A stretch of DNA of 39,746 nt, from the NCBI RefSeq assembly GCF_000568255.1, contig NZ_KK037166.1, positions 8,176,227 through 8,215,972 of the forward strand, read 5' to 3'. Position numbers and translations under genes: made by a program. How positions within the stretch are numbered: position 1 is the first letter of the stretch; each line of letters opens with the position of its first letter. Shown here in pieces: positions 4,314 to 37,455 of the stretch. Below the pieces are notes generated by a model, which saw only the letters and a list, made by a program, of their open reading frames with translations, had not been told where the DNA came from and searched no databases. The DNA comes from Kutzneria sp. 744. Its GTDB lineage: Bacteria > Actinomycetota > Actinomycetes > Mycobacteriales > Pseudonocardiaceae.

Positions 4314-4451
4314 CGCGCCACCTCCAGACTCCTGGCCGGTTTGCTTTCCAGACTAGCCCGGCGCACTCGGCTGCTCACCATTGCTCGTCTCATGGCAGGC
4401 TAGCGGTCACCGACACGCTAAACGATGGCAGCCGATTCGAGGGAGGCCGAG

Positions 4452-8543
<4,092 letters not shown>

Positions 8544-23988: not shown

Positions 23989-26900
23989 TCAGCGCCGCAC
24001 CGCCTCGATCTCAGCGAATCGGCTTCTGACGTTGTCGGTGAGCCGCTTCAGACCCAGCAGTTCCAGCACAGCCCGCCGGGAGGCCTCCTCGCCGACGTGC
24101 CCGTCCCGCTCGGCGACGTGATCGAGCAGCGCCGCCAACTCGCCCGGCGGCACCTCCTCGAAGGACCGCGGCCCGAGCTGCCGGGTCCGCACCGGCGGCT
24201 GGTCGGGCAACCGGTACGTGCGCGGCTTGATCCCGCTCTCCGCAAGCGGATTGTCCTCGACGAGGCGACCCTCGCGGACGGCCTGGGAGATCGCCTTGTT
24301 CAGCTCGCCGGCGACCAGCTTGGTGACCCGCACCGCGCCGGACGCCCGGACGTAGGCGGTGTGCAGCCGGTTGCCCAGCACGGGGCCCTCGGCCTCGACC
24401 AGATGCACCAGGCCGTCGATCATCTCTCGCCGTGACGCGGTGGCGACCTGGACGACGTCGCCGTCGAACTGCCCGTACGCCATGAGCAGCTCGTCCGGCA
24501 CGTCCAGGGTTCCGGAGAACTCCGGCTCTGTGTAAGGCCATTCGTTCTCGGCGACCGGGAAGACTGGTTCGAGGACCGGGATTTCCGGCTCGACGACACG
24601 GGTTTCCATTGCGGCGGCGGGGTTTTCGACGTCGACGGGCAGCGTTTCGACTTCGCGGGCCGGGGTTTCGACATCCACGACCGCCGACGGGTCGTCCTCG
24701 TCCGAGGTCCAGCCGGAGGGATGGATGTCCAGCTCCTGCAAGGCATCCCGCAGCTGCGCCAGGACTCCCGCACCGTCCACGTAGAACTCGGACTCCCGGA
24801 TGCGGAAGAACCGCCACCCGCATCGTTCCAGGTCCCGCTGCCGGGCCAGGTCACGCTCGTACGCCGCGGGACCGTGCCACGCGTCGCCGTCGCACTCGAC
24901 CGCCAGCCGGGCTTTGCGGCCCACGACCACCAGGTCGATGCGATAGCCCTCGGCCGAGAACTGCGGCACGACGCGATAGCCCTGGTCGACCAGGCGGTTG
25001 AACACCCGCTGTTCGAACAGCGAGTCGAAGGGCTCCACCGGCCGGTCCTCGGGCACGGGCCGGATGCTGTCCTCCGCCCCGGTCACGCGCCCGGCCAACT
25101 CGTAGCAGTAGTCCAGCAACTGGAACCGCATGTCCTCGGGATTGCCGAGTTCGGACAGCCGCAGCGAGTGGAACACCCACATCTGGTCCTTGGCCCGCGA
25201 CGCGGCGACGTTGAAGCGCTGGACGTACATGTCCTGGGTCAGCGCGCTGATCCGCTGGTCGGGCGCGGGCGCCTTGACCATGGACAGGAACATCACGTCG
25301 CGCTCGGAGCCCTGGAAGTCGGCCGAGTCCCCGCACCGCAGCTCGCGGGCCTTCCACTCCTCCGGCGGAACGCGCTCCAGCAGGAGCTTCTCGATCCGCT
25401 TGGCCTGGGCCCGTCCGAGCAGCGACACGACGCCGAAGGTCAGCCCGTCGTAGCGGGGATCGGCGACGCACTTCTCGATCTGGTCGACGATCGCGTCCGC
25501 CTCGACCGGGTTGATCTTGTCGGTGACGCCGAGCTCGTAGCCGTCGTCCAGGAACACCGGCTTGATCGGCTCCAGCCGGTCCGCCCCGTACTGGCGCACC
25601 GGCACCAGCCGCACGCCGTCGGGCTCGTAGGCGACGCGGTTGGAGAAGCCGATGATCTCCGGCACGCAGCGCCGGTGCTCGACCAGCGTGATCATGCCCT
25701 CGAACCGCATCTTCGCCTCGTCGAACAGGCTGCGCTTGGGGTCCTGCCACGACGCCCGGTACGGGTCGTCCCACAGGTACTGCTGGGCGAGGTCCCGCAG
25801 CTGCTGCTGGTCGGTGCCGACCGCGGACGGGGAGACCTGCTTGTCGTCGCCGATGACGACGATCTTCGGCGCGAGGTACTGCAGGAACGTCGCCTCCAGG
25901 CCGGCCTGCGAGGCCTCGTCGACGATCACGACGTCGAACATGTCCGGCTGGACGCGGCGGAACTGCTCGGCGATCCGGTACACGGGCATGATCCACACCG
26001 GCACCGCCGGGCGGCAGCGCTCCATGGCCACCTTGATGTCGGCCCGGCGCTGCTCGGCGTAGATGCCGGTGCCCTTGCCGAGCGCCTTCATCAGCTGCGC
26101 GTACTGGAGCAGGTCGGCCCGAGCCTTGCCGGACAGCCGCTCGGGCGACACGGCGTGGCCCCACGCCCGGTTGGCGGCCAGCTGTTCGACCCGGTCGCGC
26201 ACCCGTCGTTCGACGGTCAGCACTTCAGCCTGGAGGGCGTTGACGTCCTCGGCGCTGCGCCGCAGCACCCAGGCCCGCGCCACCGTCCAGGCCCACGCCA
26301 TGTCCCAGTCGGCCAGTCGGACCGTCCAAACAGGATCGTGCGGATCCGCTGCCACAGCCTCGTGTAGGCCGAACAGCGACCGGCCCATCTCGGCGCCGAT
26401 CTCTTCGCGCCGCCCGGTCAGCCTTCTGACGTCGGTCAATCGGGCCAACCGCTGATGAGCGGTCGCGAAGGCCTCGTGGTCCCGGTTGTCGGCGGCCCGC
26501 GCCAAGTCGTGCACACAGGGCGCCGCATCGGCCCACTGTGCCACGTCGGCGATCGTCCGCACGATGTCGAGCAGCGGCGCGGTGGCAGCGGTGCGCGCGT
26601 CCGCGGCCCCAGCGGCATCGACCAGCCGGGCATAGGTCTGCACGGCCGCGAGGTCCGTCCAATTAGGACGCGGCAGGCCGATGGCCGCCAGGCTGCGCTC
26701 CTCAGCTTCGAGGGCCGCACCCAACGCCAGCACCCGCCGCAGCTGGGCCAGCTCGGTCGCGTGCCACTGCAACCGCTCGCTCAACGTGTCTTCGGCCGGA
26801 ATACGCACCCAGTCGGGCCACGCCTTGTCCAACGCCCCCAACACCCGGCTGCCCTCGGCCCACGTCAGGAAGACGTCGAGCTGCTCGGTAGCGGTGGGCG

Positions 26901-29127
26901 GCACGCCATTGACCCGAACCGCCTGGAACAGCGGCAAGGCCAGCTTCACGGCCTTGGGCGCGAACGCACCTGTCCTGGGAGTGCCGTCCGGATTGGTCTT
27001 GAGCCGGCCGCCCTCGCCGAGATGCCCGCGCAGCGCGGTGGCCAGGGCGACGAGCGCACCGAGGTCGTCGCCCGCGACGACCTCGGTGAGCGGGTCGAGC
27101 CGGTTGACGAGCGGTTCCGCCCGGCCGATCAGCTGCGCGATCTGGTCGCCGCGCGACTGCCAGATGCCCGCGCGCCCGGCGAGCACGTCGGACAGCGCGC
27201 CGTCCATCCACTCCTCACGCCGCCGCGCCAGCTCGCCGGCCTCCCGGGCGAAACCGTTGAGCCGCAGGCGAAGCGTCTCCCGGGTGGGCGGGTCGAGCCG
27301 GCGGACAGCGTCGAAGGCCGTGTGCCGGCTGAGTTCGCCGAGACTCTCCTCGGCGGTGATCGCCTGCCGCTCCGCGGTCACGAGCGCCAGGAACTCGTCC
27401 GGCGCGGGCACGTCGGCCAGCGGCAGCAGCCGCATCCGTGACTCGGGCTCGTCGGCATTGAGCCGGTCGTCGATCAGGCTGCGATGCCAGTTGACGATGT
27501 CGTCGGCGCCGAGCGGGGACGGCACGACCTCGGTCACGGCCGTCAGATCGGCGATCCAGCCGTACCGTTCCTGCTCGGCCCGCACCCGCTGCGCGATGGC
27601 GGCCAACGTGCCGCGGTAGTCGCCGACCTCATGCTCGGTCACCTCGACGGCGCGAGCGTCGAGCAGCCGTCGGTACAGTTCGGCCCGCTGCCGGTGAAGT
27701 TCGTCGATCGTGGCGAGATGGTCGGCGATGGCCCGGTGCGTGCCGGCGGCGTCATGCTCGCTCGCCATGTGGCTGATGCGCTCCACGGCGACCTTCAGGT
27801 CGGCCATGTCCGAACGTGAGGAGCCCACGACCGACACCGCCAGCGGGGCGATGGCCTCGGGCAGCTTCGCCCGGACCTCTTTCAGCGCGCGGTCGGTGTG
27901 GGCGGTGACCAGCACCCGCTTGCCCTGCGCGAGCAGGTGCGACAGCAACGCCGCGACGGTGTGGGTCTTGCCCGTGCCGGGCGGCCCCTGGACGAGGGTC
28001 TGGGCCTTGGCGTCGACCTGCGTGAGCACCCGCAGCTGCCGATCGTTGACCGGCAGCGGCAGAAACGGGTCCGCGTCCAGCTCGACCATGGCCCCGGGCT
28101 CGGGCGACAGCTCGGCGGACGGCCGGTGGTTCGGGTCGACCAGCGGCAGCAGCCCGTCGGGGACGGCGCCGGAGTTCTTGATCTGGGCGGCGATCGAGTC
28201 GAGGATGTCGACGATCCCCTGGCGTGAACGTCGGCGCAGGACGACCGCCGGGGCGAACGCAGCGACGGCGTGCGGGCCGGACTTCTGCGGCTCGTCCTCG
28301 TCGAGGTACGCGGCGTCGCCGTCCAACGCGTGAACCAGACGGCGGAGCATCTCGCCCACCGGTTCGCGCTCGAACACGGCGGCGGTGAGTTCCCGGGCCT
28401 CGTTCCTGATCTGCACGACGTGCGGCGGATTGGCCACCAGCCCCGGATCGAGCATGTCCAGCTCGACGCTCATGCCGTCGGCGACATCGGTCTGGTGGAC
28501 GGTCAGCCGCCCGGTGCTGTCGTCGAAACGAATGGTGGCCGGCACGGTGAGCAGATGCCGGCGAACGGCATGGTGACCGCGCGGCGCCCACGAAAGGCAG
28601 CCGACGCCGATGACCAACTCGAGTTCCTCGGCATGCCCGGTCGCGTTGACATAGGCGGAGAACAGATCGTTGTAGAGATCACGGGCCGGTTGGTCGGTGT
28701 GCTCCCGCTCGGCCCACTCTGACCAGTCGGTCGCCCATTTCTCGTGTGTGTCACGGATTTCGGGCAGGTCATCCAGTTCGGTGCGCTGCTCGTCCTCGCC
28801 GATCGACTCCCGCAGCGCCGGCGGCCTGTCCGGGTCGTGCCAGTCGCCGTCCAGCCAGGGCTCCAGCTCCGGAGCCGGCTCGGGCGGGTCGTGGTGCGCG
28901 ACCCGTTCGACGTCGAGCAGGGTCTCACCCGGCTCCTCGTCGCGGTGCGCCGTCCGGACGGCCGCGTGGTCGGGCAGCTTTCCGAACCACAGCACCGATT
29001 CGTACCGGTCGGTGGTGCGGGGTGGATTCGATTTGAGGTGCTGGCTTCGGGCGAGGAACTCGAAAAGCCGTACCGCCCGATCTGTCGCCGTGCCCTGCGA
29101 ATGCGAAGCAGCGTCCTCGTGCGGCAC
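23989..29127 (-). CDS. Giant SF1 helicase fused to a Vsr-like nuclease and winged-helix domain
   Basis: About 1712 residues. Walker A is at about residue 380 (VQGPPGTGKTHT), Walker B at about 1067 (VVIVDEASQ), with later SF1 motifs (LVEHRRCVPEIIGFSNR, DFQGSERDVMFLSMV, RFNVAASRAKDQMWVF). Residues about 1355-1450 form a PD-(D/E)xK nuclease of the Vsr/DUF559/MTES_1575 type (YRIDLVVVG, then LAVECDGDAWHG). The end (about 1590-1712) resembles the DUF3320 winged-helix domain. GTG 29127 is preferred to GTG 29145 because AAGGGGG lies 6 bases upstream. This architecture is known from presumed or tested phage-defence loci. It stands alone here, with no methylase or second defence gene. Confidence 0.85.
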   Translation of the reverse strand: MPHEDAASHSQGTATDRAVRLFEFLARSQHLKSNPPRTTDRYESVLWFGKLPDHAAVRTAHRDEEPGETLLDVERVAHHDPPEPAPELEPWLDGDWHDPDRPPALRESIGEDEQRTELDDLPEIRDTHEKWATDWSEWAEREHTDQPARDLYNDLFSAYVNATGHAEELELVIGVGCLSWAPRGHHAVRRHLLTVPATIRFDDSTGRLTVHQTDVADGMSVELDMLDPGLVANPPHVVQIRNEARELTAAVFEREPVGEMLRRLVHALDGDAAYLDEDEPQKSGPHAVAAFAPAVVLRRRSRQGIVDILDSIAAQIKNSGAVPDGLLPLVDPNHRPSAELSPEPGAMVELDADPFLPLPVNDRQLRVLTQVDAKAQTLVQGPPGTGKTHTVAALLSHLLAQGKRVLVTAHTDRALKEVRAKLPEAIAPLAVSVVGSSRSDMADLKVAVERISHMASEHDAAGTHRAIADHLATIDELHRQRAELYRRLLDARAVEVTEHEVGDYRGTLAAIAQRVRAEQERYGWIADLTAVTEVVPSPLGADDIVNWHRSLIDDRLNADEPESRMRLLPLADVPAPDEFLALVTAERQAITAEESLGELSRHTAFDAVRRLDPPTRETLRLRLNGFAREAGELARRREEWMDGALSDVLAGRAGIWQSRGDQIAQLIGRAEPLVNRLDPLTEVVAGDDLGALVALATALRGHLGEGGRLKTNPDGTPRTGAFAPKAVKLALPLFQAVRVNGVPPTATEQLDVFLTWAEGSRVLGALDKAWPDWVRIPAEDTLSERLQWHATELAQLRRVLALGAALEAEERSLAAIGLPRPNWTDLAAVQTYARLVDAAGAADARTAATAPLLDIVRTIADVAQWADAAPCVHDLARAADNRDHEAFATAHQRLARLTDVRRLTGRREEIGAEMGRSLFGLHEAVAADPHDPVWTVRLADWDMAWAWTVARAWVLRRSAEDVNALQAEVLTVERRVRDRVEQLAANRAWGHAVSPERLSGKARADLLQYAQLMKALGKGTGIYAEQRRADIKVAMERCRPAVPVWIMPVYRIAEQFRRVQPDMFDVVIVDEASQAGLEATFLQYLAPKIVVIGDDKQVSPSAVGTDQQQLRDLAQQYLWDDPYRASWQDPKRSLFDEAKMRFEGMITLVEHRRCVPEIIGFSNRVAYEPDGVRLVPVRQYGADRLEPIKPVFLDDGYELGVTDKINPVEADAIVDQIEKCVADPRYDGLTFGVVSLLGRAQAKRIEKLLLERVPPEEWKARELRCGDSADFQGSERDVMFLSMVKAPAPDQRISALTQDMYVQRFNVAASRAKDQMWVFHSLRLSELGNPEDMRFQLLDYCYELAGRVTGAEDSIRPVPEDRPVEPFDSLFEQRVFNRLVDQGYRVVPQFSAEGYRIDLVVVGRKARLAVECDGDAWHGPAAYERDLARQRDLERCGWRFFRIRESEFYVDGAGVLAQLRDALQELDIHPSGWTSDEDDPSAVVDVETPAREVETLPVDVENPAAAMETRVVEPEIPVLEPVFPVAENEWPYTEPEFSGTLDVPDELLMAYGQFDGDVVQVATASRREMIDGLVHLVEAEGPVLGNRLHTAYVRASGAVRVTKLVAGELNKAISQAVREGRLVEDNPLAESGIKPRTYRLPDQPPVRTRQLGPRSFEEVPPGELAALLDHVAERDGHVGEEASRRAVLELLGLKRLTDNVRSRFAEIEAVRR

Positions 29128-29260
29128 AGCCGGCCCCCTTCTCACCCATGAACCACCAGGCTGCTCATCGCCGGTCGGCCGGTCGGCGATACGGCCGAAA
29201 CCACACCGTTATCGGGTCGGCGGAAATCGGGCGGGAAGACCACACCTTCGGGTGGCGGTG

Positions 29261-30460
29261 TCAGAGTTGGCTGGGCACACGGCCGCGGGCCGGCGCGGTC
29301 AGGCTGAACACGATCACCGGGAGCACCAGCAGGCCGGCGGCCAGGCTGAGGCCGGTGTAGGTGATCAGGGTCAGCACGACGCCGGACAGGGCGGCTCCGA
29401 TCGCGCCGGTGAGGCTCATCAGAAGGTCGGAGACGCCCTGGACGGCGGGGCGGCGGGCCAGTTCGACGGAGTCGGCGACGAGGGTGGAGCCGGCGACGGT
29501 GGACATGGACCAGCCGATGCCGAGGGTGACGAGGGCGACGGTGATCATGGTCATGGAGTCGCCGGAGGTGGCGGCGAAGACCACGGCGAGCACGAGGACG
29601 GCCTGGCCGCACAGGACGGTGCGGACGCGGCCCCAGCGGTCGGCGATCCAGCCCATGACGGGCGACAGGGCGTACATGCCGGCGATGTGCAGGCTGATGG
29701 TGAGGCCGACGACGGTGAGCGTGGCCCCGTGTTCCTGCATGTGCACGGGGGTCATGGCCATCAGCGACACCATGGTGGCATGGGAGAAGGCCAGGGTGGC
29801 GACGCCGAACCGGGCCTGCGGCGAGGACTTGATGACCTCCCAGCCGACGCGCAGGTTGCGGCCGCGGGAACCGTTGCTGGCCAACGGATCGGGCCGCAGC
29901 GCGACGAACAGCACGACCACGGCGAGGGCGGCGGCGACGGCGGAGAACACGAACGGGCCGGCCAGCGGGGGAATGCCGAGGACCTCGGCGACCGACGCGC
30001 CGGGCTTGGTGAGGTTGGGGCCGCCGACCGCGCCGATGGTGGACGACCACACGACGAGGGCCAGCGACCGGCCGCGGTGGCGGGGATCGGCCAGGTCGGT
30101 GGCGGCGAACCGGGACTGGAGATTGGCGGCGGTGCCGGCCCCCATCAACAGCATCGCCGGCAGTGTCAACGGGAACGAGTGCGCCACGGCGGCCGCGATC
30201 ACCAGCAGCGCGCCGAGCATCGAGACCAGCCAGCCGAGGCTGAGGGCGAGCCGCCGGCCGCGGGCGGCGGCCACCCTGGCCAGGGGTAATGCCCATACGG
30301 CGGCGCCGAGCGTGGACATCGTGGACGCGCTGCCGGACCATGCCGCGGACCCGGACAAATCGGCGGCCAGAACCGCGCCGACCGACACCGACGCGCCGAT
30401 CCCGATGCTGCCGGTGATCTGCGCGGCCACCAACACGCTCAGCGTTCTGCGTTGCGACAC
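29261..30460 (-). CDS. MFS transporter downstream of the Pls-like synthetase
   Basis: A 399-residue twelve-span permease of the drug-efflux type (a GWIADRWGRVRTV loop motif and DPRHRGRSLALVVWSSTIGAVGGPNL). GTG 30460 has AAGG about 10 bases upstream. The frame stays open back into the synthetase gene, and an alternative GTG lies near 30490. It begins only about 41 bases after the synthetase stop on the same strand, so cotranscription is likely, and it may export the synthetase product. That is inferred from position only. Confidence 0.85.
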   Translation of the reverse strand: MSQRRTLSVLVAAQITGSIGIGASVSVGAVLAADLSGSAAWSGSASTMSTLGAAVWALPLARVAAARGRRLALSLGWLVSMLGALLVIAAAVAHSFPLTLPAMLLMGAGTAANLQSRFAATDLADPRHRGRSLALVVWSSTIGAVGGPNLTKPGASVAEVLGIPPLAGPFVFSAVAAALAVVVLFVALRPDPLASNGSRGRNLRVGWEVIKSSPQARFGVATLAFSHATMVSLMAMTPVHMQEHGATLTVVGLTISLHIAGMYALSPVMGWIADRWGRVRTVLCGQAVLVLAVVFAATSGDSMTMITVALVTLGIGWSMSTVAGSTLVADSVELARRPAVQGVSDLLMSLTGAIGAALSGVVLTLITYTGLSLAAGLLVLPVIVFSLTAPARGRVPSQL

Positions 30461-30501
30461 GTCTGTGACCTTAGATCGCCGTGCGGTCACGCGTCCCGCT
30501 A

Positions 30502-33500
30502 TTACTGGGCCGGCTTGCGGGCCCTCGGTCGCGGCACCCGGTGCCGGGCCACGCCGACCACCACCGGCTGAACGGTCCACAGTGGACCTTCGAGCGCCTG
30601 GCGGCCGATGTCCACCGGCTCGGAGTCGTCGTCACCCTGACGCCGGGTCGGCGCGCCTTCGTAGCGCAGGCCCGGCAGCAGGTGCTCGTGCTTCATGATC
30701 ACGCTGTGGGGCGCGACGGTGGTGTGCTCGCCGACCACCGCGCCGTACAGCGGGACCGTGGCGTCGCCGAGGGTGGAGTTCGCGCCCACCTTGACGTGGC
30801 CGATCTTGAGCACGCGGTCCTCGAAGGTGTGCGCCTGGAACATGGCGTTCACCGTTGCGCCGTCACCGAATTCCAGCATGTCCGGGTCGACGATCTGGGC
30901 GAAGCCCTCGCCCAGCGCCACCCGTTTGCCGATCTTCATGCCGATCCAGCGCAGGTAGATCGGCAGCAGCAGCGTGCCCTCCAGCGCGGACAGCGGCTTG
31001 CTGGCGATGAAACCCCAGGCCACGTAAAGGAAATCCCAGCGGCTGCACCAGCATGACCACAGTGGATGGATGCCTTCCTTGACCCGGCCCAGCAGCGCCC
31101 ACTTCATCGCCAGCACGGTCAGGCACAGGAAGGCGCCGGTGAGGAAGCCGGCCGCTGGGACGCCGAGGAGCAGAAAGGCCGGCGGGGCGAGGAAAGTCGC
31201 GGCTCGTTCGATGGCATACGTCCACAGCGACAGCGCCGCCAGCGGCACGACGGGCAGCGCGAACCGGAGCCACTCCCAGAAGTTCCGGTTGATCACGCGG
31301 AGCAGCGACGGCTCGTGGGTCAGCGACCGGTCGACACTGACGATCTCCCGCTGCGGCAGCTCGAACGGCGGATGCCCGAACCAGGAGGTGCCGGGCCGGA
31401 TGATCCGGTCGTCGGCGACGGTGGAGATGCCGATCAGGATGTCCGGCGGGAGGTGCTGGCCGCTGGCGATCACGGCGTGGTTGCCGAGGAAGGTGTCGGC
31501 GCCCAGCTCGACCTCGTCCAGCACGACCACGCCGCGCTGGATCCGCGGGCCGCACAGGTAGATGCCGTCGGCGAAGAACGTGTCGGGGCCGATCGTGACC
31601 AGCTCCGGCACGACGTCGATGATCGTGCTGATCTCGCAGCCGGAGCCGACCCTCATGCCGGCGGCGCGCAGCCACACCGGCCAGAAGATGCCGCCCGACA
31701 GCCACTTTCCGGCGGAGTCGACCAGCGCGGTCTTCAGCCACACACGGATGTAGGCGACGCTGTACCGGCTGATCACCCCGGGCAGGACCGGGCCGAGGGC
31801 GCGCGCCGCGATGGCCTCCAGCGCGACCTCGTACACCAGCGCCAGGCACGCGCAGAGGCCGAGTATGGCCAGTAGCGCCAGGTGGCTGAGCGGATTGGCC
31901 AGTGCGTCCAGGAGAGTGTCGTAGGTCAGGTCCAGTTTGGACACGACGAAGGCGCTGACCACCGCGAAGGGCAGGGCCAGCACCAGGCTCAGCAGGCTGC
32001 GGCACAGGATTATCGCCTGGCCGTGGCCCTTCGGCGTGAGCGTCGGGCCGGTCGCGGTCGGCGGGTCCTCGGCGCGGCCGGCCGGCTTCGCCGGGGCGCC
32101 GTCCCAGCGTTCGCCGTCGGGCACGGCGCTTCCCGTCGGCAGATGGGACAATGCCGACAGCCAGGCGTTGTTGCCGACACAGGCGTGCGGGCCGACGCCG
32201 GCGCGGATGTCGATCGTCGAGCCGCTGCCTACTGTCACCGGGCCGATCACGACCTGGCCCTGCTCCAGGTGCACCAGGCCGAGCGAGGCGTCCTGGCTGA
32301 TCGTCACGTCGTCGCCGAGGTCGAGCAGGTCCCAGCCGCCCTGCTGGAGGTTGACGCCGCGGTGGATGTGCACGCGCTCGCCGATCCTGGCGCCGAGCTT
32401 GCGCAGCACGATCGACGTGTACTCGGTGCCGGCGATCGTGCCCCAGGGGATGAAGCGCATGAACTGCCGGACGATCCAGATCCGGACGTGGAACGGGCTC
32501 CACACCGGCGTGCGCACCGCCTTGTACTGCCCGATCAGCAACCGCTTGGCCCGCACGGCGATCTCGATGGACAGCGGCGTGACCGCCAGCCGCAGGACGC
32601 CGAGGATCACCGGCGTGAGGAAGATCAGCCCGTTCAGGCCGATGTGGTCGGACAGCCAGGGCAGCACCAGGAACACGCCGGCGTACGCCGCGATCGAGCC
32701 GAGGACGAGCTCCATCGCCAGCCACAGCGCCTGCACCACGGTCGCGCCGATGACGTCGACGGTGTGCCGTTCTCGTTGGCTTCCTTGAGTTTCGATGTCC
32801 GGCACGGCCCGTTCGGTGAGTTTGCCGATCGTGCGGGTCTCGTACAGGTCGCGGACGGTGATCGAGGCGGTGGCCGGGTTCGTGCGCAGCTTGGTGATCA
32901 GCATGGCGCCGTTGAGCGAACTGCCGCCGAGGTCGGTGAAGAAGTCGTCAGCCGGGCGGGGAAGCTCGGGGAGTTGCAGCACGGCCTGCACGGATTCGGC
33001 GATGAACAACGCGTTCGGATCCGTCGGGCGGTTCGGTATGGCGTGCTTTCTGCTGTGATGTGCCGTGAGGACGGGAAGTTCGGTGCGACGGAGCTTTCCG
33101 CCGGCGGTTCTGGGCAGTTCGTCAATGATGCCGAAGGCGCCCGGCATCATGTAGGTCGGAAGGGCCTTGCGCAGCTCGGCCTTGAGCACGTCGACATGCG
33201 GCGGTTTGCCGTTGTCGTCCGGGACCACGTGCGCGGCAAGCATTTCCGTGGCGCCCTCGCCCTGCACGCGGCAGGCCGCCTCGCGGATTCCCGGGCAGCG
33301 GGCGAGAACGGCCTCGATCGCCTCCAGTTCGATCCGGTAGCCCCGCAGCTTCACCTGCGAGTCGATTCTCCCGTGATAGAAGAAGGTTCCGTCCGGTTCG
33401 GCGTGCACGAGGTCGCCCGTGCGGTAGATCCGGCCGAGTTCCGGATGGTCGACGAACTTCTCCTTGGTCAGCTCAGGCTGGTTCAGATAGCCCAGGGCCA

Positions 33501-34569
33501 GCCCGGCCCCGCCCATGCACAGCTCGCCCTTCTCGCCCTGGACAACGGGTTCCAGCTTGTCGTCGAGGGCGTAGGCCCGCATGCCCGGCACGGGTTGGCC
33601 GATGGCCACCGGCTCGCCGGGCACGATGTCCTGGCGCATGCACGTGACCGTGCACTCCGTCGGGCCGTAGCCGTTGACCATGCGGCGGCCGCGCGACCAC
33701 CGCTCGGCGACGTCGTCGGGCAGGGCCTCGCCGCCGACGTACAACAGCCGCAGGTGCAGCAGTTCCGTGCGCGGATCTTCGCAACCGGTGGCACGTAACA
33801 GGGTCGGTGGCGGGCAGAGCACCGTGATGCGCTCATTGCGCAGCCAGGGCACCAGATCCGGGCCCAGCCGCGCGGTCTCGTCGTCCATCGACACCACGGT
33901 GGCACCCGTGGCCAGCGCCATCCAGATCTCCTCGACCGAGGAGTCGTAGGCCGGCGAAGACCCTTGTGCCACCCGGTCTCCGGGGCCGAGGTCGAACTCC
34001 AGCACATCGCCGCCGACCAGGTTCGCGGCGCCCCGGTGCGGGATCATCACGCCCTTGGGCCGGCCGGTGCTGCCGGAGGTGTAGATGATGTACGCGACGT
34101 CGTCCGGACCGGGCGGCTTGGGCAGCGGCAGCGCCGGCGTGGTCAGCGGCAGGTCGACGCGGATGATCGGGCCGGGATAGCCGATGCCGGCCGCCCGCTC
34201 CGCGCCGGCGGCGTCGGTCAGCAGCGCCCGCGCCCGGGAATCGCTGAGGATGTGCGTGACCTGGTCGTCCGGGAACGCCGGATCGACGCACACGTAGGCC
34301 GCGGCTGCCGTTAGCACCGCTAGCTGCGCCACATACAGGCGCGGCGTGGTGCGACCCAGCATGATCGCGGCCACCGCGCCCCGCCCGACCGCGAGGTTCA
34401 CCACGCCGGCCAGCAGCTCCGACTCGTGCTTGAGCTCGGCGTAGGTCAGCATCTCGCGGCCGGGCCGGCTCGCCGCCGGCGGCACGTCCACCGCGACGGC
34501 GTCCGGCCAGCGCACAACGGCCTGCGCGAAGAACTCGTGCAGGCCGCGCGGCTCAGCGGTGGACGACAT
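30502..34569 (-). CDS. Pls/PosA-family non-ribosomal peptide synthetase (poly-amino-acid synthetase-like)
   Basis: A 1355-residue membrane enzyme. The adenylation domain spans about 1-500 (YTSGSTGRPKG at 163-173, YRTGDLV at 382-388, Lys492). The carrier domain at about 523-587 has Ser551 in DLGGSSL for phosphopantetheine. There is no condensation or thioesterase domain. Instead residues 605-1355 alternate about six membrane spans with three soluble left-handed-helix (hexapeptide-repeat-like) domains, ending in the 'NRPS terminal domain'. This is the plan and size of epsilon-poly-L-lysine synthetase (about 1319 residues). The likely reaction is ATP activation of an amino acid and repeated amide formation. 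Asp209 suits an alpha-amino-acid substrate, and Glu213 could face a basic side chain. Confidence 0.9.
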   Translation of the reverse strand: MSSTAEPRGLHEFFAQAVVRWPDAVAVDVPPAASRPGREMLTYAELKHESELLAGVVNLAVGRGAVAAIMLGRTTPRLYVAQLAVLTAAAAYVCVDPAFPDDQVTHILSDSRARALLTDAAGAERAAGIGYPGPIIRVDLPLTTPALPLPKPPGPDDVAYIIYTSGSTGRPKGVMIPHRGAANLVGGDVLEFDLGPGDRVAQGSSPAYDSSVEEIWMALATGATVVSMDDETARLGPDLVPWLRNERITVLCPPPTLLRATGCEDPRTELLHLRLLYVGGEALPDDVAERWSRGRRMVNGYGPTECTVTCMRQDIVPGEPVAIGQPVPGMRAYALDDKLEPVVQGEKGELCMGGAGLALGYLNQPELTKEKFVDHPELGRIYRTGDLVHAEPDGTFFYHGRIDSQVKLRGYRIELEAIEAVLARCPGIREAACRVQGEGATEMLAAHVVPDDNGKPPHVDVLKAELRKALPTYMMPGAFGIIDELPRTAGGKLRRTELPVLTAHHSRKHAIPNRPTDPNALFIAESVQAVLQLPELPRPADDFFTDLGGSSLNGAMLITKLRTNPATASITVRDLYETRTIGKLTERAVPDIETQGSQRERHTVDVIGATVVQALWLAMELVLGSIAAYAGVFLVLPWLSDHIGLNGLIFLTPVILGVLRLAVTPLSIEIAVRAKRLLIGQYKAVRTPVWSPFHVRIWIVRQFMRFIPWGTIAGTEYTSIVLRKLGARIGERVHIHRGVNLQQGGWDLLDLGDDVTISQDASLGLVHLEQGQVVIGPVTVGSGSTIDIRAGVGPHACVGNNAWLSALSHLPTGSAVPDGERWDGAPAKPAGRAEDPPTATGPTLTPKGHGQAIILCRSLLSLVLALPFAVVSAFVVSKLDLTYDTLLDALANPLSHLALLAILGLCACLALVYEVALEAIAARALGPVLPGVISRYSVAYIRVWLKTALVDSAGKWLSGGIFWPVWLRAAGMRVGSGCEISTIIDVVPELVTIGPDTFFADGIYLCGPRIQRGVVVLDEVELGADTFLGNHAVIASGQHLPPDILIGISTVADDRIIRPGTSWFGHPPFELPQREIVSVDRSLTHEPSLLRVINRNFWEWLRFALPVVPLAALSLWTYAIERAATFLAPPAFLLLGVPAAGFLTGAFLCLTVLAMKWALLGRVKEGIHPLWSCWCSRWDFLYVAWGFIASKPLSALEGTLLLPIYLRWIGMKIGKRVALGEGFAQIVDPDMLEFGDGATVNAMFQAHTFEDRVLKIGHVKVGANSTLGDATVPLYGAVVGEHTTVAPHSVIMKHEHLLPGLRYEGAPTRRQGDDDSEPVDIGRQALEGPLWTVQPVVVGVARHRVPRPRARKPAQ
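34311..34323. repeat. CTAGC-N3-GCTAG palindrome, site 3, one mismatch (in Pls-like gene)
   Basis: TTAGCACCGCTAG. On the coding strand it reads CTA GCG GTG CTA (Leu-Ala-Val-Leu) in the adenylation domain. Confidence 0.65.
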
Positions 34570-35035
34570 TGAGCATGGCGAGCAGATGGTCGGCCAGCAT
34601 CGGGCGCAGCAGCTCGCGCTCGTCCGCGGTGCGGAACCGGAAGCCCTGGATCCGCCCGCGGCAAGCGCTTGCGCCGCAGTGGCAGTCGAACGGCTCGGCC
34701 ATCTCGAACTCGGTGCTCTCGTAGTGGAACGTGATCTCCTGCCACGGCTCGATCGGCCGCAGCGCGAAGAAGTCCCGCCCGCGCAGCTGGGCGTTCGGCG
34801 CGCAGCTGTGGTTGGTGAAGCGCCAGAAGAAGCGGTCCATCATCTCCTCCGGCGCGTGGCCGCCGGGCAGATCGAGGTGGATTCCCGAGCCCACCTGGAC
34901 CGAATAGCGGGTCGGCTGCTCGGTGATCTGGCCGTCCACCGCGAAAAGCCGGCTCCCGGTCGGAAAATCGCGTTGGGCGACGAGTTTGAATGCGCCGCCC
35001 GTCCGCACGACCGCAAATCCGTCCGTGGCTGTCAT
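34553..35035 (-). CDS. SET-domain methyltransferase-like protein
   Basis: A 160-residue protein with the SET catalytic core: NHSCAPN at residues 75-81 (the pseudoknot that binds S-adenosylmethionine), FALRPIEPWQEITFHY with Tyr105, and a post-SET zinc motif, Cys118-x-Cys120 and Cys125 (CHCGASACRG). SET enzymes methylate lysine side-chain nitrogen. Its stop overlaps the start of the Pls-like gene by 17 bases, which implies translational coupling. GGGAGG lies about 9 bases before ATG 35035. The target is unknown; free lysine-like monomer, the polymer, or a lysine in the synthetase are all possible. SET proteins are rare in bacterial biosynthetic operons. Confidence 0.85.
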   Translation of the reverse strand: MTATDGFAVVRTGGAFKLVAQRDFPTGSRLFAVDGQITEQPTRYSVQVGSGIHLDLPGGHAPEEMMDRFFWRFTNHSCAPNAQLRGRDFFALRPIEPWQEITFHYESTEFEMAEPFDCHCGASACRGRIQGFRFRTADERELLRPMLADHLLAMLNVVHR

Positions 35036-35503
35036 CGCCGGGTCCTCCCTGCTCGTTCCCGGTGATGAGTACGTGTCGTCTCGGTGCGCCGGTTCACCGG
35101 TGAGCGGGGATCACAACCGGAAATGTCGGACGGAGATTGACTATCCGGGAGGTATCCCCACGGCCGCGACCGCGTCGGCCAGCCGGCGCACGCCGTCGAT
35201 CAACACCTCGGGCGGCTCGCCGGCGAACGTCAGGCGCAGGTGCGGGGCCGGCGGGTCGGCCGCGTACCAGGGCCGGCCGGCGGAGACGACCACGCCGTGG
35301 GCCGCGGCGGCTGCCGTCAGTTCGACGTCGTCGACGCCGTCCGGCAGGCGGACCCACACCTGCATGCCGCCCGACGGGATCGTGACGGGCCGGAGTTGGG
35401 GGAGTTTGGCCGCCAACGCCGTGAGCAGCGCGTCTCGGCGGGCCTTCAGCGCCGGCCGCAGCGAGGTGAGGTGACGCTGCCATGCTGGCGATGACAGAAA
35501 TTT

Positions 35504-35516
35504 CTAGCGCCGCTAG
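35504..35516. repeat. CTAGC-N3-GCTAG palindrome, site 4 (in MocR gene)
   Basis: CTAGCGCCGCTAG, read as CTA GCG GCG CTA on the coding strand. It lies some 20-30 bases before the frameshift. Confidence 0.8.
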
Positions 35517-35755
35517 CTGAAGCGGTCCGGCGACGAAGAAGTCGTCCATGACCCGAGCCGAGCGCAGCCGGGCCCCGGCCGCGCCCCTGGCCCCGATGGC
35601 CGCCACCCGCAGCCCCGGCGCCGCCGATTTCGTCAGCGAGCGCAGGTAGATGACGTGGCCGTGGATGTCGTCGGCCGCCAACGGCGGTGGCGGCGTGCCG
35701 TCGATGACCAGGTCACGGGCGAAGTCGTCCTCGATGAGGAACGCCCCATGCTTCG

Positions 35756-35768
35756 CTAGCACCGCTAG
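35756..35768. repeat. CTAGC-N3-GCTAG palindrome, site 5 (in MocR gene)
   Basis: CTAGCACCGCTAG, read as CTA GCG GTG CTA (Leu-Ala-Val-Leu) on the coding strand, 252 bases from site 4. Confidence 0.8.
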
Positions 35769-36517
35769 AACTTCCGGCCGCCGCTCGCGTGACAGCACCG
35801 CCCCGTGCGGATTCGCGTACAGCGGCTGACAGTAGAAGACCTTGGCGCCGGTCCTGGCGAACGCCGCGTTCAGCAGATCCGGCCGTACCCCATCGGCGTC
35901 GGCCGGCACCGGCACCACCCGCAGACCTGCGCTTCGCGCCGTGGCGATCGCGCCCAAGTAGGTGGGGGCCTCTACCAGCACCGGGTCACCCGGCTCCGTC
36001 AATGCCCGGAACGCCGTTGACAGCGCCGCCTGTCCGCCCGGGCACACCACCATGTCGCCCGCGCGGAACGCCCCGCCGGCCTGCCTCGCGAACCAGGCCC
36101 GGAGCTCCTCCCGTCCCTCCACCGGCCCTCGCGCCCAGGCCTCCGGCCTCCGCGCCGCCCGGCCCAGCGCCGCCCCGAGGGCCGCCACCGACTGCAGCTC
36201 GGGGTCCAGGTAACCGCCCGACATCGGCACCATCTCCGGCCCCGGCACCGTCAGCAGATCCCGGAGCGACTCGTCGCCCGGCGGCTTCGCCCCCAGCGCC
36301 ACCGACTGCCACTCCAGGTCCGGCACCTCGCTCGTCGGCCGCCTCGTCGCCGCGAAGGCCCCCTTGCTGGCCCGGACCTCGATAACGCCCTCGGCCGTCA
36401 GCCGGCGCATCGCGTGCTGCACCGTCACCGGCGACACCCGCAGCTCCGCCATGATCGTCCGCACCGACGGCAGCCTCCCGCCCGGTCCCACCGTGTGGGC
36501 CGCGGCACGAAGCAGTC

Positions 36518-36568
36518 GGATAACACCCTGCTCCGCGTTATCCTCATTCATGAAAGTAGAGGATAACG
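36518..36568. promoter_or_regulatory. Likely MocR operator with overlapping divergent promoters and starts
   Basis: CGTTATCCTC (36536-36545) and GAGGATAACG (36559-36568) form a perfect 10-bp inverted repeat around a 13-base spacer that contains both start codons. A further GGATAAC lies at 36518-36524. Reading out each way, TATCCT sits 5 (plus) or 8 (minus) bases before ATG, as a -10 box would for leaderless mRNAs. Confidence 0.6.
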
Positions 36569-37455
36569 TTACTGCCTCCATCCGAGTAACGTCCGGCATC
36601 GCGCTCGGTGCCCTCGGCGTCCTGGCCTTCAGCTTCACGCTGCCGATCACCAGGTTCACCGTCGCCTACCTCGACCCCTGGTTCGTCGCCTTCGGCCGTG
36701 CCGCCGTCGCCGGTGTGCTCGCCATCGGCTACTTGGCGTTATCCCGTCCGCGGTCGGCGGTTGCTGTGTGGCCGACCGGCGCGCAGCTCCGACGGCTCGT
36801 CGTGGTGGCGTGCGGCGTGGTGGTCGGCTTTCCGCTGTTCACCTCCATCGCGCTGACCCAGGCCACTGCCGCTCACGGCGCGGTGGTCATCGCTCTGCTG
36901 CCGGCCGTCACCGCCGTATTCGCCGTGGTGCGGGGCGGCGAGCGGCCATCGCCGAAGTTCTGGCTGGCCGCCGGTGCTGGCTTCTTCGCGGTGCTGGCCT
37001 TCGTCGCCGTCTCCGGCGGGATGGCCGGCGGCTTCCAGGCCGCCGACCTGTGGTTCCTCGCCGCCGTCGTGGTGTGCGCCCTGGGCTACGCCGAGGGCGG
37101 GGCCCTCGCCCGCGACCTCGGCGGCGCGCGGACGATCTGCTGGGCCCTCGTCCTCTCCTTGCCGGTGACCATCCCGGTCGCCCTCGTCAGCGCCCACGAG
37201 CTCGCCGCCGCCTCGGCTCTGGCCTGGACCGGGTTCGCCTATGTGGCCCTGATTTCCCAGTTCCTCGGCTTCTTCGCCTGGTACGCCGGCCTGGCCCGCG
37301 GCGGCGTCGCCCGCATCGGCCAGATCCAGGCCGTGCAGCCCGTGCTGACCCTCGCGTGGTCCGCGCTCCTGCTCCGCGAACACGTAGACGTCGTCACCGT
37401 GGTGGTCGCCGGCGTCGTGCTCGCCTGCGTGGTGCTCACCCAGCGCGCCCGATGA
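36550..37455 (+). CDS. EamA/DMT-family transporter
   Basis: A 301-residue membrane protein with ten spans in two EamA halves (first half to about residue 140, second from about 150). Conserved-looking features are the FTLPITRFTVAYLDPWFVAFGRA opening and AWSALLLREHVDVVTVV near the end. DMT proteins often export amino acids or related metabolites. ATG 36550 overlaps the MocR start codon on the other strand within CATG, and no ribosome site is possible in a short leader, so the mRNA may be leaderless. MocR control is inferred from the divergent pairing and the inverted repeat. Confidence 0.88.
   Translation: MKVEDNVTASIRVTSGIALGALGVLAFSFTLPITRFTVAYLDPWFVAFGRAAVAGVLAIGYLALSRPRSAVAVWPTGAQLRRLVVVACGVVVGFPLFTSIALTQATAAHGAVVIALLPAVTAVFAVVRGGERPSPKFWLAAGAGFFAVLAFVAVSGGMAGGFQAADLWFLAAVVVCALGYAEGGALARDLGGARTICWALVLSLPVTIPVALVSAHELAAASALAWTGFAYVALISQFLGFFAWYAGLARGGVARIGQIQAVQPVLTLAWSALLLREHVDVVTVVVAGVVLACVVLTQRAR

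Follow-up and report, generated by a model that had tools for sequence, protein, structure and literature searches.

A conserved gene pair of a SET-domain methyltransferase and a divergent Pls/PosA-like synthetase in Kutzneria sp. 744, with a possible role in linking methylated amino acids

A conserved SET–synthetase gene pair

The window analyzed here is a 39,746-nucleotide stretch of the 11.6 Mb genome of Kutzneria sp. 744 (contig NZ_KK037166.1, positions 8,176,227 to 8,215,972). Its minus strand contains three consecutive genes, encoding a small SET-domain methyltransferase (P0001, 34553-35035; 160 residues, Pfam SET E-value 2.4e-8, BurB-like by fold score), a synthetase resembling Pls and PosA, the epsilon-poly-L-lysine and delta-poly-L-ornithine synthetases (P0002, 30502-34569; 1355 residues), and a major facilitator superfamily (MFS) transporter (P0003, 29261-30490). 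The synthetase consists of an adenylation domain (33055-34569, residues 1-505) with the ten-letter pocket code DSECYGGVTK, a carrier domain (GGSS), and a terminal membrane/hexapeptide-repeat region (P0006, 30505-32754, residues 606-1355) that is similar to TIGR02353 at a score under its cut-off. The SET stop and the synthetase start overlap by 17 bases (34553-34569), with the synthetase ATG at 34569; both this overlap and the minus-strand placement of the three genes agree with an earlier first-pass annotation of this DNA. A scan for promoters and terminators gave no signal exceeding those of shuffled sequences.

The SET and synthetase genes form a real conserved unit, not a chance arrangement. 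Using a profile built from ten SET proteins, we obtained matches in 30 of 297 Pseudonocardiaceae genomes, separated by a wide gap into 15 strong ones (E ≤ 2.2e-65) and the rest (E ≥ 4.1e-23). The surrounding stretches were examined for all 15 strong matches and for 14 weak ones (11 from Pseudonocardiaceae and three from a phylum search), several of the latter being short owing to contig ends. Next to every strong SET, including that of the source genome, a synthetase lies directly downstream and is 63-100% identical to the window's in the terminal region, whereas none of the 14 weak loci has a Pls-type terminal region within the stretch fetched. The reverse search gives the same partition: in a non-random set of 55 genomes (36 comprising the source genome and its near relatives, seven further strong, and 12 further weak), the terminal region matches 92 places, of which 15 are at least 63% identical and fall exactly in the 15 strong-SET genomes, and the remaining 77 are at most 36% identical. 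Measured from the possible synthetase start codon nearest the SET stop, the two genes overlap by 17 bases in seven of 16 adjacent pairs and by four bases in eight, and are separated by three bases in one.

The adjacency that the first-pass annotation had proposed to check beyond the strain is thus found in 15 Pseudonocardiaceae genomes (the source genome included) and in four Verrucomicrobiota assemblies. In the first of these assemblies, a SET protein (44% identity) and a synthetase (52%) are encoded side by side; strong SETs occur in four of the eight genomes of that genus, all four with the synthetase directly downstream. Three of these four pairs were fetched after the SET-upstream rule had been noted, and all three obeyed it, one contig ending inside the synthetase. 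In a search of 72,556 plasmid records, the synthetase found 150 matches at E ≤ 1e-60, of which only four, all from Streptomyces, reach 60% identity; SET matches at E 1e-5 occur in nine records, and only the same four are strong (~53%). Three of these four plasmids are nearly equal in length and may be near-copies, and the regions of two were read. Altogether the synthetase accompanies 23 of 24 strong SETs (15 in Pseudonocardiaceae, four in Verrucomicrobiota, four on plasmids), the exception being a Mycobacterium. Wider samples with the SET profile gave no strong match beyond those known (0/396 at phylum, 0/394 at class, and 0/397 at order level), so the unit is rare and patchy; the Verrucomicrobiota sample (1/288) and the genus Mycobacterium (1/69) each returned only the known case. 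Phages gave no match. Such a patchy distribution would be expected for horizontal spread. Searches of an open-access library listed no report of a SET–Pls-like synthetase pair among the titles and abstract openings shown. Each half has a known relative; the constant pairing, the invariant code that goes with it, and the substrate prediction that results were not found in these searches.

The three-gene operon suggested by the first-pass annotation holds for the pair and does not extend to the transporter. An MFS gene follows the synthetase in five of the six pair-bearing Kutzneria genomes (in two of these after a gap of ~0.7 kb) and in none of the nine other Pseudonocardiaceae and four Verrucomicrobiota stretches compared (two of the four Verrucomicrobiota contigs end at or inside the synthetase; plasmids were outside this comparison). 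As it was not found with the pair beyond Kutzneria in these stretches, the MFS gene was rejected as a core member and is regarded as accessory. Its open reading frame extends from 30580 and has in-frame GTG codons at 30490 and 30460, i.e., 11 and 41 bases past the synthetase stop, the previously given distance of 41 bases corresponding to only one of these two possible starts.

Synthetase code and relatives of the SET protein

The synthetase shows AMP-binding, AMP-binding_C, and PP-binding domains followed by a TIGR02353 match over positions 4-694 of 695. Hydrophobic stretches of the terminal region fall into three groups (604-672, 850-923, and 1124-1161) in a crude test that flagged two segments of the adenylation domain as well. 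The combination of adenylation domain, carrier, and three-group membrane terminus is that of the Pls/PosA plan, as the first-pass annotation had recognized. Formal membership in TIGR02353 did not hold up: the terminal region scores 370 bits (373 in the genome search) against a curated cut-off of 423, and the code differs as well. By sequence, the protein is a divergent relative of Pls/PosA and not a formal family member. The source genome has four further TIGR02353 matches, of which three exceed the cut-off.

The ten pocket residues of the adenylation domain were read off an alignment, at positions that we take to correspond to those of GrsA: D209, S210, E213, C252, Y277, G279, G300, V308, T309, and K492. 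The same code, DSECYGGVTK, is present in all 21 paired synthetases examined, including two of the four plasmids and all four Verrucomicrobiota, and in none of 21 unpaired relatives, 11 of which have DAESIGTVVK and 10 a DFE-type code; these relatives comprise 20 of the 77 weaker matches (mostly the higher-scoring ones) and one protein from Mycobacterium. The paired code thus differs from the diamino acid codes DAESIGTVVK, DFE-type, and DMEHNGTVSK, and 18 paired synthetases form a single clade with a Shimodaira–Hasegawa-like approximate likelihood ratio (SH-aLRT) support of 100 in a quick tree method. Our strings conform to the convention used in PMC10522769 (this paper and the two others cited below are used for the sections consulted). 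According to that paper, the alpha-amine is bound by Asp217 and the side-chain amine by Glu221, with Thr304 and Ser313 forming hydrogen bonds to the terminal amine. In that numbering, Asp217 and Glu221 are kept as D209 and E213, whereas Thr304 is replaced by Gly300 and Ser313 by Thr309. Asp and Glu occupy code positions 1 and 3 in all 21 paired synthetases, and the position of Gly300 is Thr in 19 of the 21 unpaired relatives. We read this change as one that may have kept the charge and gained room at the substrate head group. For a Bdellovibrionales homolog with an identical code, the same sections of PMC10522769 report that four diamino acids were not favored and that L-arginine was activated modestly, with the true substrate not established.

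The SET protein carries the motif RFTNHSC (residues 72-78), the catalytic-type Tyr105 (equivalent to BurB Tyr124 and invariant in all 10 rows of our SET alignment A1), and the post-SET cysteines 118, 120, and 125. The NHSC motif and the tyrosine are features of lysine methyltransferases, the tyrosine being undiagnostic as it is common to BurB, and public annotation names such proteins 'protein-lysine N-methyltransferase'. The best sequence match in the PDB is BurB (phmmer, E 4e-12; next match 1.6e-5). A model built from 55 alignment rows has a predicted local distance difference test score (pLDDT) of 94, and Foldseek ranks three BurB chains first to third (E 2e-11 to 4e-11, template-modeling (TM) scores of 0.68-0.69), the best histone methyltransferase following at E 1.5e-7 and TM 0.62; BurB was also on top with an earlier model from 10 rows (pLDDT 72). 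BurB converts free L-methionine to S-methylmethionine (PMC7496086, PMC12542666), and BurA loads the sulfonium acid derived from S-methylmethionine (PMC7496086). The lysine N-methylation suggested by the first-pass annotation accordingly shares its place with methionine S-methylation, the activity of the best-scoring solved relative, and is kept as one of two main options. The pattern Y-x-[ST]-T-E past the catalytic-type tyrosine is present in 19 of 19 strong SETs vs 7 of 81 others, one of the seven being a SET of the dimethylsulfoniopropionate (DMSP) type; counted by the T-E three and four residues past the tyrosine and picked after viewing the BurB alignment, it is a weak marker. In the SET tree, row L093 was placed within the pair clade with a branch length of 2.81, a placement treated as an artefact.

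More distant SET genes occur in other settings. At L021 (4290-11419) and L074 (3929-8686), sister-type SETs each stand in a cluster that encodes an AMP-ligase, an amino acid dehydrogenase, and proteins resembling by eye an acyl carrier protein, FabG, FabI, or MaoC. These dehydrogenases are 51-56% related to one beside the synthetase in the pair locus L067, which has an 86% copy in L068. L021 also encodes a thiamine pyrophosphate (TPP) enzyme scoring 502.4 bits against a cut-off of 500 for 2-ketoarginine (5-guanidino-2-oxopentanoate) decarboxylase. Both clusters possibly represent an onium-primed lipid pathway. On two Streptomyces plasmids, a SulP transporter gene follows the SET gene; together, the dehydrogenase, TPP enzyme, and SulP neighbors hint weakly at the chemistry of free, often cationic amino acids, with no choice among methionine, lysine, and arginine. 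At two weak Pseudonocardiaceae loci (L076 and L077), distant SET genes lie between adenylation genes of the ordinary nonribosomal peptide synthetase type. On the Eleftheria terrae plasmid NZ_CP106953.1 (L181), a SET gene stands beside a polyketide synthase, a TauD-type dioxygenase, an aminotransferase, and an aminobutyraldehyde dehydrogenase, in a cluster that appears DMSP/bur-like. Viral contigs gave 39 loci (L205-L243) with distant SET-domain proteins, 25-52% identical over the matched stretches.

A proposed pathway and competing explanations

We propose, with a probability of about one half, that the SET protein methylates a free amino acid before its activation, and that the partner synthetase activates the product and links it through amide bonds. 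The SET protein would transfer the methyl group of S-adenosylmethionine to the amino acid side chain, yielding a methylated, cationic product. The first candidate, still a tentative one, is S-methylmethionine, by analogy with BurB; the second, which we hold slightly more doubtful, is N-epsilon-methylated lysine, and other products share a small remainder. The adenylation domain would be specialized for this product, with Asp209 serving the alpha-amino group, Glu213 the positively charged head, and Gly300, in place of Thr, providing room for the methyl groups. After activation, the amino acid would be transferred to the carrier, and the membrane terminus of the Pls type would amide-link the units into an oligomer or polymer, exported in Kutzneria perhaps with the MFS protein.

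Chain growth sets a constraint on this proposal. Neither S-methylmethionine nor trimethyl-lysine could be linked through the side chain, because it has no N-H, and growth through the alpha amine would be required; we know of no Pls enzyme that extends its chain in this manner. Mono-N-methyl-lysine could still form side-chain amides; alpha linkage, for its part, would be a novelty in the Pls family. It is conceivable, if speculative, that the pair is a two-gene system polymerizing permanently charged amino acids (sulfonium or quaternary/N-methylated ammonium), alpha-linked if the side chain has no N-H, which, if true, would represent a class of polycations not known to us and, for the Pls family, a linkage of a new kind.

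Besides this constraint, several observations weigh against methylation of a free amino acid ahead of the synthetase. The root-mean-square deviation (rmsd) of the SET model to BurB is 7.6-8.7 Å vs ~3.5-3.8 Å for the next-ranked ASH1L chains (TM 0.62-0.63), and because the former is large and the latter lower, the fold comparison leaves the SET substrate unsettled. The DMSP-type SET of Eleftheria terrae is separated from the paired SETs by a 96/83 branch in a tree that does not include BurB. The paired SETs keep RFxNHSC like lysine methyltransferases (NHAC in two), whereas BurB has LHSC, and in our reading of the alignment Trp71 stands where BurB has Ser88 (numbering of PMC12542666). No DMSP decarboxylase, transaminase, or dehydrogenase genes are evident beside the pairs, among neighbors that were in part family-scanned. 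On the four Streptomyces plasmids, the matches place SET and synthetase 10.5-13.6 kb apart and on opposite strands, and the unit is patchy even within the genus, one of six Kutzneria genomes besides the window's having no SET match. We also know of no assay for any enzyme of this SET clade or for the window's synthetase.

We weighed four other explanations, taken here in descending order of probability. A special case of the proposed pathway, which we consider doubtful, is a polymer of an N-methylated diamino acid (e.g., poly-N-epsilon-methyl-lysine) exported by the MFS protein. It is suggested by the Pls-like architecture, by SET chemistry on lysine, and by a small residue, Ser210, at the place of Ala in lysine enzymes, whose size permits a long side chain (PMC10522769), but it has to contend with BurB outscoring the lysine methyltransferases and with the lack of conservation of the MFS gene with the pair.

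Rather doubtful, too, is a later action of the SET protein, on the carrier-bound amino acid or on the finished polymer, such that the adenylation domain would activate an ordinary amino acid, e.g., arginine. The modest activation by L-arginine of a domain with the same code fits this order of events (PMC10522769), and the TPP enzyme adjoining the sister-type SET at L021, just above its cut-off, points to arginine-like chemistry. BurB, by contrast, uses a free amino acid. Nor do we know of SET enzymes that methylate guanidino groups.

That the SET protein is a protein lysine methyltransferase, modifying and regulating the synthetase or another protein, would agree with its public name, with its RFxNHSC motif and catalytic-type tyrosine, and with an rmsd that is smaller for ASH1L-type enzymes than for BurB. 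We regard it as unlikely. BurB scores best both by sequence and by Foldseek E-value, and the adenylation code tracks the SET gene (21/21 vs 0/21), which protein regulation does not predict. In addition, the genome of Mycobacterium sp. PS03-16 encodes a SET protein of this clade, with 51% identity to that of the window in alignment A1, but no paired synthetase; its best Pls-like protein reaches 34% identity and carries a lysine-type code. There (L004, 9980-15450), the SET gene is directly followed by a frame listed at 1707 residues, with MurF-like, CapA-like, and TupA-type ATP-grasp domains and a possible ATG giving a four-base overlap with the SET stop; the locus possibly encodes a synthetase of an amino acid-containing capsule polymer with a methylated monomer. 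What the SET contexts have in common would thus be a ligase that forms amides of amino acids, rather than the synthetase itself. This partner switch is a single case in one draft genome. Because the same-clade SET is coupled to a different, unrelated amide ligase, a SET-modified synthetase, as considered in the first-pass annotation, has become less likely, and both contexts make sense under the proposed pathway because in each an amide ligase would receive its methylated amino acid from the SET protein.

Very improbable, finally, is a detached part of a DMSP-type pathway in which the SET protein produces S-methylmethionine for osmolyte synthesis and the synthetase is only a bystander: the BurB-like fold score and the distant SET in the Eleftheria terrae cluster are outweighed by the synthetase being present with 23 of 24 strong SETs, by the lack of DMSP decarboxylase/dehydrogenase genes beside the pair in the neighbors scanned (two loci have an amino acid dehydrogenase), and by Asp209, kept for the alpha-amino group and missing from the DMSP-loading BurA as described in the consulted sections of PMC7496086.

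If methylation of a free amino acid ahead of the synthetase is correct, small-molecule SET chemistry extends past DMSP, and the pair would yield either a bacterial polycation of a new material class or a new addition to the monomers that thiotemplate enzymes load. The Pls-type class with the code DSECYGGVTK is left without a substrate in the sections of PMC10522769 consulted, and its constant SET partner points to methylated amino acids. The automatic name 'protein-lysine N-methyltransferase' may mislead for this SET clade.

Neighboring genes and likeness to known systems

Upstream of the SET gene, at 35094-36659 (minus strand), lies a gene for a MocR-like regulator (GntR plus aminotransferase fold). 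Four relatives have a long open reading frame with which its 3' third is out of register; a one-base length difference from the one relative aligned reflects a real mutation or a sequencing error. Present with the pair only in Kutzneria, in five of its six pair-bearing genomes, this regulator was rejected as a member of the unit; PucR-type regulators occur near some other SET–synthetase pairs. On one Streptomyces plasmid (L179, 18220-25481), related hypothetical proteins (~340-460 residues, 38-56% identical) are encoded between synthetase and SET, with no Pfam match among those scanned. Elsewhere in the window, a 1718-residue protein (23989-29145, minus strand) that combines AAA helicase-type domains with a nuclease of the MTES_1575/DUF559 type at its C-terminus looks like a defense-type helicase-nuclease, and its matches to the anti-phage proteins ProA and Hhe are far under the cut-off. 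A 1372-residue hybrid histidine kinase with a long HAMP array (six or seven stretches), GAF, and response regulator domains is encoded at 4425-8543 (plus strand).

The synthetase half of the pair is closest to Pls and PosA (TIGR02353), with which it shares the order of adenylation domain, carrier, and membrane terminus, the Asp at position 1 and the Glu at position 3 of the code, and an alignment over the full length of the family model. It differs from them in its score (370 vs 423 bits), its separate clade (SH-aLRT 100), its code, and its constant SET partner. The Bdellovibrionales protein Bdello_A (OFZ39577.1) has the identical ten-letter code as printed in PMC10522769, where methylation is not taken up in the sections consulted.

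The SET half is closest to BurB of Burkholderia thailandensis, likewise a small stand-alone SET protein with post-SET cysteines and Y-x-S-T-E past the catalytic-type tyrosine, acting in a pathway with a dedicated adenylation domain (BurA). Unlike BurB, to which it is ~30% identical, the window's SET protein belongs to another clade than the DMSP-type SET, has Trp71 for Ser88 and NHSC for LHSC, superimposes with a large rmsd, and is partnered with a Pls-like synthetase whose pocket is of the alpha-amino-acid type. For the loading of a SET-derived sulfonium compound by a thiotemplate enzyme, BurA itself is a precedent, and it has an acidic pocket residue (PMC7496086). In the account given there, BurA is without the conserved Asp since DMSP has no alpha-amine, whereas the window's adenylation domain keeps it. 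The MurF-like/CapA/TupA-type fusion of Mycobacterium sp. PS03-16 resembles the pair in its coupling to the same SET clade and in being a candidate amide-forming ligase, the ligase chemistry being unrelated to that of the synthetase. Although the tree does not group the SET protein with the DMSP-type SET, the pair may work like a combination of Pls/PosA and BurB.

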